Shown in pieces: positions 24,545 through 35,213 of a stretch of 64,000 nt of DNA. This stretch comes from Anaerolineae bacterium (GTDB taxonomy: Bacteria > Chloroflexota > Anaerolineae > Aggregatilineales > Phototrophicaceae), in assembly GCA_021296065.1 (NCBI GenBank), contig JAGWBD010000003.1, positions 35,145-99,144 of the forward strand, in the 5' to 3' direction. Both the position numbers and the translations under genes were made by a program. The notes beneath the pieces are model-generated. The model had not been told where the DNA came from. It saw only the letters and a list, made by a program, of their open reading frames with translations, and ran no database searches. Position 1 is the stretch's first letter. Each line of letters starts with the position of its first letter.

Positions 24545-25264
24545 TCAGCCCTCGATATCGCAGCCGAGGAAGCGTCGCCCCTGCTGCTGACAGGCCTCCA
24601 GCACGGAGAAGCTGCCGGCGGCGGGGTCGATGACCACGTCGCCCGGCTCACTTACGGCCGCGATTAACCTTCCCTGCAGTTCAAGCGGTTTGCGATGGGC
24701 ATGCAAGCCGCGTTCGACGCGCTCGCGCCAGACGTCGGGGATGTCATGCGCCGTCCAGACGCCGCGGGCGCGACGCTGCTCTTTCTGCAGCACCACCAGG
24801 TGCTCGCCCTGCCGCCGCGTGCGGTAGCCCATGCCCATGCGCCCTTTATCCCAGGTGACCATGTCGACCACCGTCAACTGCGTCCCCGCCAGCCAGGGCG
24901 CAAAGCCGCTGCAGAGGTGGAACTTGTCCAGCCACAGGAAGAGGTGGCCGCTGGCCCGCAGGACGCGGTCGATACCCTCGATGAAGGCCGCGATGGTGGC
25001 CTCGTCCATCTGCTGCAGCGCGGCCCGCTGCCGGCCGCGATTGACGCCCTCGTTGCCGTAGGCCAGTTTGTCGAGCACGCCGCGGTACTGCGGGTCGAGG
25101 AAGGCGACGGGGGCCGCCTCGTCCGGCAATTGCGCGAGAAAATCAAGCCCGTCCATCTTCAGGCGCGTGTCGAATTGGAGGTTGGTGGGTAGGGTGAATG
25201 ACATCGGTGCCGCGCCATCAAGCGCGGACCCGACAACTCTGCCACTATGACTGTTGTTGTTCAC
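24545..25264 (-). CDS. Site-specific DNA methyltransferase (N6A/N4C type; DPQY motif)
   Basis: 'APVAFLDPQYRGVLDKLAYGNEG' (motif IV) and C-terminal 'PGDVVIDPAAGSFSVLEACQQQGRRFLGCDIE' (motif I/X); GTG start overlaps upstream gene by 20 nt, or ATG at 25204. Confidence 0.8.
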   Translation of the reverse strand: MNNNSHSGRVVGSALDGAAPMSFTLPTNLQFDTRLKMDGLDFLAQLPDEAAPVAFLDPQYRGVLDKLAYGNEGVNRGRQRAALQQMDEATIAAFIEGIDRVLRASGHLFLWLDKFHLCSGFAPWLAGTQLTVVDMVTWDKGRMGMGYRTRRQGEHLVVLQKEQRRARGVWTAHDIPDVWRERVERGLHAHRKPLELQGRLIAAVSEPGDVVIDPAAGSFSVLEACQQQGRRFLGCDIEG

Positions 25265-26063
25265 GGTGCGCTTTTAACCCCTGGAGGCGCCTGGCGAGTT
25301 CTCTTCTTAGTCTTGTCGCGTTTTCGTAGAAAATAACTGGATAGTCTTTTACATCAAACTCCAATTCTGTGCCCTGCCGTGCGACATAAATTGGTGTTTT
25401 TTCCTGCCCGTGTGCGAAACCAGCTTCCCAGTAGACATTCGGTCTTGAATGAGTCAAGTCTGCCACCATGTAGTCGGCATCGGCAATGGCTTTCAGAATG
25501 CGGTCAGTGATTTTCTCGTTGCTGATTTGTTCATCTATACGTTCTGCCTTTAGTCCTGCGTCGCTGGCAGCATCTTTAATGGCTTCGTGGATATCTTCGA
25601 GCTGTGGGTCTTCGGGTGTCATCGGCATTGCGATGAATACATCACCTTTGCCGCTGGATTGACTCTTCGACTCTTGTGCTTTTTTTGCAGCCATTTCTGC
25701 TTTGCGTGCTGTTTTCAAATACCCAATGCCTTCATCGATCACGTCAAGTGTTAAATCGAGGATTTTCTCGTCCGTAATATTTGTCATAAAAGCCGACCTC
25801 TGTGTTTTAGACGTTATTAAATTTAGTAGAGGAATTTTTATCACTGGCGCTCTAGATCCAATAGCTGGCGGAGGAAACTCGACCATTTCCGTCTCGGCCC
25901 CGCTTTCTCTCAGTAATTTTGACGCCTTTGATTTCATTTCATTAATCATTCGCCGTTGTTCAAGAGTTTCGCTTTCAGTACTCCCTGAATTGCCTCGCGT
26001 CAGATACCCACCGACCAATGATCTGAACTGTTCAAGAAACTTGACGTCTTCGCTTCTATCCAT
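25245..26063 (-). CDS. Protein with C-terminal TIR-like / nucleoside 2-deoxyribosyltransferase-fold domain
   Basis: 'DVFIAMPMTPEDPQLEDIHEAIKDAASDAGLKAERIDEQISNEKITDRILKAIADADYMVADLTHSRPNVYWEAGFAHGQEKTPIYVAR'; lower GC; start at ATG 26063 with AAAGGGG SD. Confidence 0.8.
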   Translation of the reverse strand: MDRSEDVKFLEQFRSLVGGYLTRGNSGSTESETLEQRRMINEMKSKASKLLRESGAETEMVEFPPPAIGSRAPVIKIPLLNLITSKTQRSAFMTNITDEKILDLTLDVIDEGIGYLKTARKAEMAAKKAQESKSQSSGKGDVFIAMPMTPEDPQLEDIHEAIKDAASDAGLKAERIDEQISNEKITDRILKAIADADYMVADLTHSRPNVYWEAGFAHGQEKTPIYVARQGTELEFDVKDYPVIFYENATRLRRELARRLQGLKAHREQQQS

Positions 26064-26397
26064 CGTTGACTGACCCCTTTGCACGAAAGACCGGGCTGCA
26101 TGCGGCCCGGCCTTCCCTTTCGAACCTGACATACCCCCGCGAATGCCCTGCGACACCAGGATGCCGCAGAGGCGGGTTAACGCCAGGGTGCATGACAGGT
26201 TCAGGATAAGTCAGTTCCCTGGCCATGACAAGTTTCCTGCCCGAAAATCGCCATTCGTGCCTGGCCTGTAACCTTCTGATCCAGCGGCAAAAGTCCACAA
26301 ACAGCAACAGCCTGCCACCGCTTGCACAAATGCGATAACGGTTAGAATAATCGCCTGTTCCGACGAGACCGAAGCGCGCCTGCAAGGAGAGTGCCGC

Positions 26398-30984: not shown

Positions 30985-32124
30985 ATGCACGTCGCCCTCA
31001 ACGGCTGGTTCTGGCAAAAACCCCACAGCGGCAGCGGCCAGTATCTGCGGCAATTGTTGCGCGCCCTGACGCAATTGCCCGCGCCGCCCCAACTCACCCT
31101 GGTGCTGCCGGCCGGGGTCCCTGCCGGCAAGGACCTGCCGTCCGGCGTTAAAACGATCTCCACGCATGGCCGGCGCGGCCGCCTGGGCAAGCTGCTCTTT
31201 GAGCAACACGGCTTTCCGCGCGCGGTGGCCGCCTGCGGCGCTGACATCGCCCACGTGCCCTATCACGGCGCCCCCTTGCGCTCACCGGCGCCGCTGGTCA
31301 CTTCCGTGCTGGACGTCGTCGCGCTGGTCATCCCGGACTACGCACGGCGCCTGCCGGCGCGGCTCTATACGGCGCTGGTCAGCGCCAGCGCCCGCGGCTC
31401 CTCGCACATCATCACGCTCTCGCATGCGTCCAAAATCGATATTGAGGAGCACCTCGGCCTCCCAGACGAACGCATCACGGTGACCTGGCTGGCGCCGGAC
31501 GACGCCTGTCACCCGCGCCTGGGCGCGGAACGCGACCCCGCCGTGCGCATTCGTTACAAGCTACCTGAACGCTACGTCTTCGCCATCGGCGGTTTCGACC
31601 TGCGCAAGCAGTTCAAACAGTTGTTGCTGGCCTGGTCCTGGGTGGCGCAAGCCGAGGGCGCGGACTGCGCGCTGGTCATTGCCGGTCGCGAGCCGCGCTG
31701 GCGCGCGCCGCTCTTTCCGGACCTGCGCGCCCATGCCCGCGAGCTGGGCATCAGCGATCACATCCTGTGGCTCGGCGAAATCGACGACCAGGACAAGCCG
31801 GCCCTCTACCGTATGGCGCGCGTCTTCGCCTTTCCCAGCCGCTACGAGGGTTTCGGTTTACCCGTACTCGAGGCCATGGCCTGCGGCACACCCGTCGTCG
31901 CCAACGAGATTTCCTGTCTGCCTGAACTGGTGGAAGACGGGGCATTCCTCGTCGAACCCGGCAACGCTCGCGCCATGGCCGGCGCCATCATCGCCCTGCT
32001 CAACCAGGAACCCCTGCGCCAGGCCCAGCGCAACGCCGGTCTGGCGCGCGCCACACACTTCAACTGGCGCCGCACGGCGCAGCAGACCCTCAGTGTCTAT
32101 GAGCGGGCGCTGACAAGCCGCTAA
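30985..32124 (+). CDS. Glycosyltransferase family 4
   Basis: 'HILWLGEIDDQDKPALYRMARVFAFPSRYEGFGLPVLEAMACGTPVVANEISCLPEL'. Confidence 0.95.
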   Translation: MHVALNGWFWQKPHSGSGQYLRQLLRALTQLPAPPQLTLVLPAGVPAGKDLPSGVKTISTHGRRGRLGKLLFEQHGFPRAVAACGADIAHVPYHGAPLRSPAPLVTSVLDVVALVIPDYARRLPARLYTALVSASARGSSHIITLSHASKIDIEEHLGLPDERITVTWLAPDDACHPRLGAERDPAVRIRYKLPERYVFAIGGFDLRKQFKQLLLAWSWVAQAEGADCALVIAGREPRWRAPLFPDLRAHARELGISDHILWLGEIDDQDKPALYRMARVFAFPSRYEGFGLPVLEAMACGTPVVANEISCLPELVEDGAFLVEPGNARAMAGAIIALLNQEPLRQAQRNAGLARATHFNWRRTAQQTLSVYERALTSR

Positions 32125-32804
32125 AGACTGTGCGACTCGCCGGGCTGCAGCACAAGCGGCTCGCTGTCGGTCTCGCCGCGCACACGTTCCGCCCAGGCGT
32201 CCACGTCCACAGCCACCAGGTCAAAGGTGTTGTAGTGCATGGGCACCACCAGACGCGGCTTCAGGAGCTGCGCGGCCGCCACGGCGTCATCCGGCCCCAT
32301 CGTGAAGTTGTCGCCAATGGGCAGGAACGCCACGTCCAGACCACCCCTGCCGATCAACTGCATGTCCGAAAACAGCGCCGTGTCTCCGGCGACGTAAAGC
32401 CGTTGGCCCGCCGTCGTGGTAAAGACGAAGCCATTGGGATTGCCGCCATAGCTGCCATCCGGGAAGGATGAGCTGTGGAAAGCGATGGTCTGGCGGGCGT
32501 GTACGAAACCGAAGTCACGGCCGCCACCGGAATTCAGGGGATGCGCATTGAGCCCCTTGCCGCCTGCCCAGGTCGCGATTTCGACATTGGCTACCACCGT
32601 GGCCCCGCTGCGCGCCGCCACCACCTCCAGATCCGCGACGTGATCGCTGTGCGCGTGCGTCACGAAAATGAGTTCCGGGTTGAGGCTGTCGGGATCGACG
32701 TCCGTCACCGGGTTGTCGCTGATGAAGGGGTCCAGCAGTGTCTCATGCCCGTCAAAGTGGAACACAAAAGTGCCATGCCCGATCCAGGTAAAGGAAACGC
32801 CCAT
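32121..32804 (-). CDS. Metal-dependent hydrolase, metallo-beta-lactamase fold (UPF0173-like)
   Basis: 'TWIGHGTFVFHFDGHETLLDPF', 'IFVTHAHSDHVADLEVVA', 'AQLLKPRLVVPMHYNTF'. Confidence 0.9.
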   Translation of the reverse strand: MGVSFTWIGHGTFVFHFDGHETLLDPFISDNPVTDVDPDSLNPELIFVTHAHSDHVADLEVVAARSGATVVANVEIATWAGGKGLNAHPLNSGGGRDFGFVHARQTIAFHSSSFPDGSYGGNPNGFVFTTTAGQRLYVAGDTALFSDMQLIGRGGLDVAFLPIGDNFTMGPDDAVAAAQLLKPRLVVPMHYNTFDLVAVDVDAWAERVRGETDSEPLVLQPGESHSL

Positions 32805-32897
32805 GAAATTACCTCCCTTTTTTACTGTGCATGCTGTCGACCGGCCTGTCGTATGTCGCAGGACGTGGCTGCCTGTTCAAAAACTTGCCGGCAGAGT

Positions 32898-33245
32898 TGT
32901 CATTGTATTTAAAAATAGTAATAACAGCAGGGCCTGTCGATGATGTGCATAACGGAGACAGGGTGCCGGCGTGCGCGCGCATTTATCGCAGATTTTCGCC
33001 ATGAATCGCAGAAAATAACCAGATATCCCTGTTTATCCCCGGTGATATTGCAAGCTGGCACAAGCAGCCTGTGCACAAGGAACTGTGCACAAGGGCGACG
33101 ACTGTACACACTGTGTATAACTGCAGGCGCAACTGTGCACAGGCCGACAATAATACACAGCGTTAGAAGCGACTTATGAACAGTTACGGGCAGCTTTTTG
33201 GCAGGTTATCGACAGGTTGTGCACAGGTTGGTTGCGAAAAGCGGG
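32898..33245. other. oriC: Candidate chromosomal replication origin (oriC): AT-rich tract, DnaA-trio-like triplets, DnaA-box cluster
   Basis: AT tract plus TAG-TAA-TAA-CAG-CAG (32916-32930); TTATGCACA (minus, 32952-32944); TTATACACA (minus, 33120-33112); TTGTGCACA at 33078-33070(-), 33092-33084(-), 33217-33225(+); TTATCGACA 33206-33214(+); TAATACACA 33151-33159(+). Confidence 0.8.
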
Positions 33246-33338
33246 GAAATACCTGCCGAAAGTTGGGATATTTGGACGGGAGCGCATGCTATACTGCCTG
33301 GCCGGATCTTCGATCTGGCGAGGTAAAGAAATCCCCGT

Positions 33339-35213
33339 ATGTCCCTCCTGAGCGGCAGTGGGCTGGCCTGTTCCTTCGCGGCGGACGAGATTTTCGCGGA
33401 AGTCAACGTGGAGATTGCGCGCGCCGCCCGGATTGCGCTGGTCGGGCCCAACGGCGCCGGCAAGACGACACTGCTGCGCGTGTTGAACGGGCAGGAAGCG
33501 CCCGAGGCGGGTGTTGTGCGTGTGGCGGGCGGGACGCGGATTGGCTATCTGCCGCAGCGATCGGAACTGGCTGGTGTGCACAGCCTGGAAACAGAGGCGC
33601 GGCGCGGCTTCCGCGATCTGGAACGACAGGCGGCGAGGCTGGCCGGGCTGGAAGCGGCCATGGAAGACCCGGTGCGGCGCAAGGCGGCGCTGGCGCAGTA
33701 CGGGCCCTTGCAGGAAGGCTTTGAGCGCGCGGGCGGTTATACCCGTGAGAGCCGCATGCGCATGGTGTTGCGCGGCGTAGGTTTCGCGGAAGCGGATTTC
33801 ACGCGGCCGCTGACGCAGCTCTCCGGCGGGGAGAAGACGCGCGCCAATCTGGTGCGATTGCTGCTGCAGGCACCGGACCTGCTGCTGCTGGACGAACCCA
33901 CCAACCACCTGGACATCGACGCGATCACCTGGCTGGAAAAGTGGCTGGCGTCCTTTGCGGGCGCCGTGTTGCTGGTCAGCCACGACCGCTGGTTCATGGA
34001 CCAGTTTGCGCAGCAAATCTGGGAACTGGAGCAGGGCAGGCTGAGCGTGTATCTCGGCAACTACAGTCACTACGCCCGCCAGCGCGGGGAGCGCCGGCAG
34101 CGCCGCCGACTGGAGTACGAGGCGCAGCAGGAACGCATTGCGAAGGATGAAGCCTTTATTCGCAAACACATGGGCAGCCGACTGACGGCGCAGGCAAAAG
34201 GGCGGCAGAAGCGGCTGGCAACCCTTGAGAAGCGCGGTCTGCGGCTGGAACGTCCGACGGGTGAGCGGCGTCGGATGGGACTGGACATGGGCGAGACGCA
34301 GCGCAGCGGCGACGAGGTGCTGGTGACGCGCGACCTCGTGCTGGGCTACCCGGACGACGGCCTGCCGCTGCTGCGCGTGCCCGATATCACCCTGTGCCGC
34401 GGCGAGGTGGCGGCCCTGGTCGGCCCCAACGGCGTGGGCAAGAGCGCCTTTCTCAAGACCATCACCGGGCAACTGGCGCCTTTGGCAGGCAGCGTGCGGA
34501 CTGGCGCTGCGGTGCAGCCCGGTTATTTCGCCCAGGCCCACGAGAACCTGCGCGAGGACAGGTCCATCCTTGACGAGATTCTGGAGCGGAGGCCCCTGAA
34601 GGTCAGTGAAGCGCGCGACCTGCTGGGCCAGTATCTCTTCGGCGGCGACGACGTCTTTCGCCCGGTGCACACGCTAAGCGGTGGCGAGCGCGGCCGCCTG
34701 GCGCTGGCCCTGCTGGCCCTGGCGGGCGCCAATCTGCTGCTGCTGGACGAACCGAGCAACCATCTCGACATCGACAGTCAGGACGTGCTGCAGCAAGTGC
34801 TGGAGCGCTTCGGCGGGACGGTGCTGCTGGTCAGCCACGACCGCTGGCTGATCGACGCGCTGGCGACGCAATTGTGGATCGCGTCAGCGGGCGAGATTCG
34901 TCTGTTTGACGGTACCTGGGCGGAATACGCGCGGGCGCAGGAGGCGGTCGTGAAACAGCCTGCAAACGCCAGAGCGGCGCCGTCGCGACGGCGCAAGGAG
35001 CGGCCGCGAGGAAAGAAAGAGCAACGGCGCGCGCTGGAACTTGAAGCGCACATTCATGATCTCGAGCAGCAACAGGGCCGCGTGGCTACTGCGATCGAAG
35101 AAGCGAGCCGCGCGGGTCAGGGGGAGAAGGTGGCGGAGCTGGGGGCCTTGTGGGCGGAGGCGGATGCTGCGCTGGAAGCCGCACTGACGGAATGGAGTGT
35201 GCTGGCCGATTGA
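33339..35213 (+). CDS. ABC-F family ATP-binding cassette protein
   Basis: Two ABC domains: 'LVGPNGAGKTTLLRVLNG', 'LSGGEKTRANLVRLLLQAPDLLLLDEPTNHLD', 'LVGPNGVGKSAFLKTITG'; no TM; C-terminal coiled coil. Confidence 0.95.
   Translation: MSLLSGSGLACSFAADEIFAEVNVEIARAARIALVGPNGAGKTTLLRVLNGQEAPEAGVVRVAGGTRIGYLPQRSELAGVHSLETEARRGFRDLERQAARLAGLEAAMEDPVRRKAALAQYGPLQEGFERAGGYTRESRMRMVLRGVGFAEADFTRPLTQLSGGEKTRANLVRLLLQAPDLLLLDEPTNHLDIDAITWLEKWLASFAGAVLLVSHDRWFMDQFAQQIWELEQGRLSVYLGNYSHYARQRGERRQRRRLEYEAQQERIAKDEAFIRKHMGSRLTAQAKGRQKRLATLEKRGLRLERPTGERRRMGLDMGETQRSGDEVLVTRDLVLGYPDDGLPLLRVPDITLCRGEVAALVGPNGVGKSAFLKTITGQLAPLAGSVRTGAAVQPGYFAQAHENLREDRSILDEILERRPLKVSEARDLLGQYLFGGDDVFRPVHTLSGGERGRLALALLALAGANLLLLDEPSNHLDIDSQDVLQQVLERFGGTVLLVSHDRWLIDALATQLWIASAGEIRLFDGTWAEYARAQEAVVKQPANARAAPSRRRKERPRGKKEQRRALELEAHIHDLEQQQGRVATAIEEASRAGQGEKVAELGALWAEADAALEAALTEWSVLAD

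Follow-up and report, generated by a model that had tools for sequence, protein, structure and literature searches.

Does the 534-bp intergene at 32805-33338 of the window (the whole 64-kb stretch of DNA that was analysed) serve as the chromosomal replication origin (oriC) of this bacterium, with the initiator gene dnaA located elsewhere? Adjacency to dnaA (or dnaN) is common for oriC but is not a defining feature of it. With a probability that we put at about 95%, we predict that this intergene is the single chromosomal oriC of a member of the class Anaerolineae, that it is separated from dnaA and that it is opened in the manner of Bacillus subtilis. The functional prediction is drawn from sequence, namely the recognizable elements, their non-randomness, their uniqueness in the genome, their conservation and a switch in GC skew. 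The source assembly is a 2.82-Mb draft in 178 contigs (85% complete), in which the window belongs to contig C30, and our search of the literature found no paper on replication origins in this lineage.

The intergene separates two divergent genes that are transcribed away from it: a UPF0173 metal-dependent hydrolase gene (32121-32804, minus strand; NCBIfam NF001911), which proved to be a syntenic marker of the origin, and an ABC-F ATPase gene (33339-35213, plus strand; NF000355), which forms the opposite flank in the window's genus. Between them are the DnaA boxes TTATGCACA (32944-32952, minus), TTGTGCACA (33070-33078, minus; 33084-33092, minus, a copy kept in the genus; and 33217-33225, plus), TTATACACA (33112-33120, minus), TTATGAACA (33174-33182, plus) and TTATCGACA (33206-33214, plus), along with the DnaA-box-like TAATACACA (33151-33159, plus); TTATACACA and TAATACACA are invariant across three congeners. 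A further box-like site, TTTTGAACA, is found at 32874-32882 (minus), past the trios described below. The first-pass annotation, which had proposed an oriC here from the letters alone, identified both neighbors correctly and gave every box that it listed at the right position and strand; it had omitted TTATGAACA and TTTTGAACA. The AT-rich tract that it placed at 32898-32924 in GC-rich DNA is equally real, the intergene having 50.6% GC versus about 66% for the window. About 7 kb from the origin there is another lower-GC stretch (24545-26156, minus), which encodes a type II-like N6/N4 DNA methyltransferase and, next to it, a protein weakly matching a TIR-like effector, possibly a restriction or defense pair.

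This clustering far exceeds random expectation. Eight box-like 9-mers fall within 282 bp (32944-33225), which thus holds half of the 16 sites in the 64-kb window that are at most one mismatch away from TTATNCACA. In 300 first-order random 64-kb sequences with the dinucleotide statistics of the window, no 300-bp stretch contained more than three such sites, and simulations with the intergene's own composition reached a maximum of five in 3000 trials versus the eight observed. The pattern TTRTNCACA has 49 sites in the whole 2.82-Mb assembly, five of them in 32805-33338, and elsewhere at most two occur close together, so that the assembly has no second comparable cluster. Two other kinds of element were considered for this region: Rfam gave no structured-RNA match at the origin region, and a promoter reading was set aside, as the sole promoter-like site in 32600-33500 (32940-32912, minus) sits on the putative unwinding element and is no better than chance.

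The AT-rich end of the intergene and its outermost box together probably constitute an unwinding element of the B. subtilis type. Read on the minus strand from 32952, the anchoring box TTATGCACA is followed by TCATCGACA (32935-32943), a degenerate second box of a tandem pair whose counterpart in relatives is TTTGAACA or TTTCGACA, then by the GC-rich spacer GGCC (32931-32934; CCC or GCCC at the same place in relatives), and finally by seven in-register DnaA-trios, CTG CTG TTA TTA CTA TTT TTA (32910-32930), which overlap the AT-rich tract, have an A at the center of each triplet on the complementary strand and are the likely site of unwinding. In the published rule for finding such basal unwinding systems (BUS), the first trio follows the better box at a distance of no more than 16 nt, most often 10-13, and at least three N-A-N trios are required (PMC8287927); here the gap is 13 nt and the trios number seven. 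The same element recurs across the family with canonical CTACTACTA trios (the G061 counterpart reads GTTTTGAACAGTTTGAACAGCCCTACTACTACTACTA), than which the window's own CTG CTG TTA are less canonical, and in the congener G002 the trio register breaks after three. A box at -15 from the element, with further boxes near -140/-155 and -220 to -345, is kept in most of the family origins that we read. A class-wide search with a strict trio pattern recovered few origins, which indicates that such a pattern does not accommodate the variation of the element.

Homologs of the locus define its reach. Used as a query, the intergenic DNA matched the same genus only, aligning at 76-79% in two congeners (G001 and G002) with most boxes unchanged, and beyond the genus the origins of relatives were located by box-pattern and synteny searches. 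Most family origins escaped a search for TTATNCACA with one mismatch allowed, their boxes being TTTTGAACA or TTTTCGACA. Of the 24 genera, 14 had clusters by one variant of a three-box pattern applied to 98 family genomes and 21 by the other, and the same pattern run backward as a control over these 98 genomes found almost no matches. In a genome of another genus (G006), eleven box-like sites are found at the equivalent position, upstream of UPF0173; the cluster lies 342-2028 bp upstream of that gene in 28 family genomes, and in twelve the two are on separate contigs. Across many of the 24 genera, the layout is usually accompanied by a GAF histidine kinase, the UPF0173 hydrolase or both, with the GAF-HisKA-HATPase kinase typically between the cluster and UPF0173 and, in several genera (g13, g17, g22 and g37), dnaN on the opposite side; the origin locus of the window's genus has neither the kinase nor dnaN. 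Conservation across relatives, which the first-pass annotation had named as a check, thus extends to the cluster, its geometry and the unwinding element.

The GAF-HisKA-HATPase kinase (e.g., L074:12980-14311 in G045) is the most constant neighbor of the origin in the family and keeps this place also in genomes that have UPF0173 on a different contig (e.g., G015 and G048); a link of this kinase to the control of initiation is conceivable. In G055, a box-trio origin is found at C4:139627 and a joined kinase-UPF0173 pair on a different contig (C2:236234-238302), which suggests that the origin moved or that the region was rearranged. The genus g18 (about 30 genomes, including G019, G051, G056 and G059) has almost no three-box cluster. 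The DnaA C-terminal domain was without a match in the one g18 genome tested, and no kinase matched in four 14-kb stretches around UPF0173; of the two stretches scanned for boxes, the first (L310) had no cluster and the second no box at all. Possibly, the DnaA of this genus is divergent or absent.

The cluster coincides with a change of sign in the GC skew. Because the draft is in 178 contigs, the source genome's own skew covers only 84 kb, and whole-genome skew was read as sampled stretches of relatives. In the source, the skew passes at about 32-33 kb from negative (-0.020 over 53 kb on the left) to positive (+0.053 over 31 kb on the right). On a 696-kb contig of a congener (G001:C10), the homologous cluster has ten negative samples out of ten on its left and five positive ones out of the first five (to 498 kb) on its right, with the outer right part (513-637 kb) about zero or slightly negative. 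G045 is a member of the same family with a single contig of 5.63 Mb. There, all 17 samples taken from 3.92 Mb, across the end of the contig, up to 0.844 Mb are negative, and 19 of the 20 between 0.8447 and 3.66 Mb are positive. The sign changes at the box cluster (844.7 kb) and again near 3.7-3.9 Mb, which gives two arms of about 2.9 and 2.7 Mb. The dnaA gene of G045 lies at 1.1 kb, within a one-sign run, and that of G001 inside a negative-skew run of more than 600 kb, so that the sign change for which the first-pass annotation had proposed to look is at the cluster in all three genomes and not at dnaA in the two relatives. The G045 record, which starts at dnaA, therefore begins 844 kb from the predicted origin.

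As that annotation had also noted, dnaA and dnaN are outside the window: the former is on contig C110, between spoVS-like and leuS-like genes (named from sequence), and the latter on C37, which means that the intergene on C30 adjoins neither. Likewise, the family layout is not at dnaA in those genomes where both were located. Box-trio elements adjoin dnaA in other families of the class (L271 and L280), and this is maybe the ancestral place of the origin; from these few loci, we suggest that separation from dnaA may be a derived state of the window's family. The same loci lend some color to the idea that the true origin is still beside dnaA and that the window's cluster is a relic. We rejected an origin at dnaA and give the relic explanation almost no chance, as the source dnaA locus has no box cluster and a nearly uniform skew, and dnaA in both G001 and G045 sits within a long run of negative skew.

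Clusters of DnaA boxes are also carried by loci that titrate the initiator. Accordingly, the window's cluster, positioned as it is between two divergent genes, might be a datA-like titration site or a DnaA-regulated promoter region of UPF0173 or ABC-F, with the true origin elsewhere. This we regard as very unlikely, given that the skew switches at the cluster in three genomes, that the cluster is unique in its genome, that a unidirectional box-spacer-trio unwinding element is kept across genera and that the box layout is conserved while the flanking genes vary among them. An origin of a plasmid, chromid or integrated element might also be envisaged, since a draft assembly does not prove contig C30 to be chromosomal; the homologous clusters, however, lie inside the 696-kb contig of G001 and the single 5.63-Mb contig of G045, where the switch at the cluster splits the whole molecule into two arms, and such an extrachromosomal or mobile source has in our view a negligible probability. 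The intergene is, thus, very probably a chromosomal oriC, and the candidate away from dnaA advanced in the first-pass annotation is borne out by the box cluster, the skew sign change and the conserved geometry with its unwinding element.

Several further sites could supplement the boxes. ATP-DnaA boxes carry a C at position 7 (PMC8235120), as do ATATCCCTG (33023-33031, plus; conserved in G001 and G002) and TTATCCCCG (33033-33041, plus), which we predict to be weak sites of this type; TTATCCCAA-type sites are possibly ATP-DnaA boxes as well. Family origins are also enriched in the motif TTGGGATAW (complement WTATCCCAA), of which G007 has 12 copies in a stretch of 570 bp (C4:43765-44332) and G045 seven in one of 490 bp (C1:844545-845035). 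The window's copy, ATATCCCAA (TTGGGATAT on the plus strand; 33263-33271, minus), is one of only four in the source assembly. Since TTGGGATAW also has a C at position 7 in the register of the DnaA box, it is plausible that its copies are weak DnaA sites. Alternatively, it is possible that the motif is bound by another regulator, because copies occur away from origins too. Both G007 and G045 have more copies of it genome-wide than of the reversed pattern.

The boxes themselves depart from the standard in a family-wide manner. Those of the window's family avoid TTATCCACA throughout: 'CC' at positions 5-6 occurs in one of 429 boxes from family origins versus 38 of 46 in elements of other families, the family's letters there being mostly GA, CG, GC, CT or CA. 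We compared DnaA sequences from the source (G000 C110; L001 and L307) and from the DnaA loci L282-L309. At the position aligned with Escherichia coli Asp433, each of the 20 family genera read has S, T, K, A or R; because the genera are related, these are not independent events. Nine of 13 other sequences of the class have D there, with N or H in families f2, f3 and f8. In domain IV, helix 5 is in base-specific contact with the DNA (PMC5043019), and the equivalent of Asp433 is highly conserved in all classes (PMC8235120). That study assigns Asp433 to box position 7, which is unchanged in the family's boxes, so that the link of this residue to positions 5-6 is a putative one. The start-site sequences and DnaA appear to have changed together across the family. 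We lean, with some reserve, toward a switch of DnaA-box recognition by the whole family, in which Asp433 of helix 5 was replaced, the boxes went from TTATCCACA to TT(A/T)T(GA/CG/GC/CT)ACA and the origin came to lie away from dnaA, as a natural case of initiator-origin co-evolution.

By analogy with B. subtilis-type origins, we infer that DnaA, encoded at its separate locus, would bind both the box cluster (33070-33225) and the tandem pair (32935-32952), from which a DnaA filament would grow onto the trios (32930-32910) and melt the neighboring AT-rich DNA for loading of the helicase. Forks would then depart both ways, co-directionally with the divergent flanking genes. The prediction places oriC for a large, mostly uncultured lineage of Chloroflexota, where default tools seeking dnaA and TTATCCACA could miss it; a known origin enables estimates of growth rate from peak-to-trough coverage and a rational numbering of genomes. 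The paired change in residue 433 and box positions 5-6 also offers a comparative system for the evolution of an essential initiator and its binding sites.

In its predicted opening, the window's origin is closest to the BUS of B. subtilis (boxes #6/#7, GC-rich spacer and trios; PMC6669920, PMC8287927), with which it shares tandem boxes, a short GC-rich spacer, the 13-nt spacing, in-register trios with a central A on the bound strand and further boxes upstream. Unlike that system, it is not beside dnaA, its trios are partly degenerate in the genus and its boxes differ from TTATCCACA. Elements from other families of the class (L271, L280 and L273) share a common box-spacer-CTACTACTA organization; in contrast to the window's family, the origins there use TTATCCACA boxes and their DnaA keeps Asp433, with a dnaA gene adjoining L271 and L280 and lying within the 3-kb stretch examined at L273 and L278. 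Ori-Finder 2022 points out that species often have DnaA boxes of their own and that an oriC may lie at a distance from dnaA. Separation of the two is an already known situation, unusual only against the textbook rule; what would be new to the specialist is the family-wide change of the boxes together with DnaA. As in the dnaA-distal origins of E. coli and Yersinia, which lie between gidA and mioC, and others (PMC10225481), a functional-looking oriC stands apart from dnaA, but its neighbors are different: UPF0173 and ABC-F in the window, and the kinase and sometimes dnaN in relatives.
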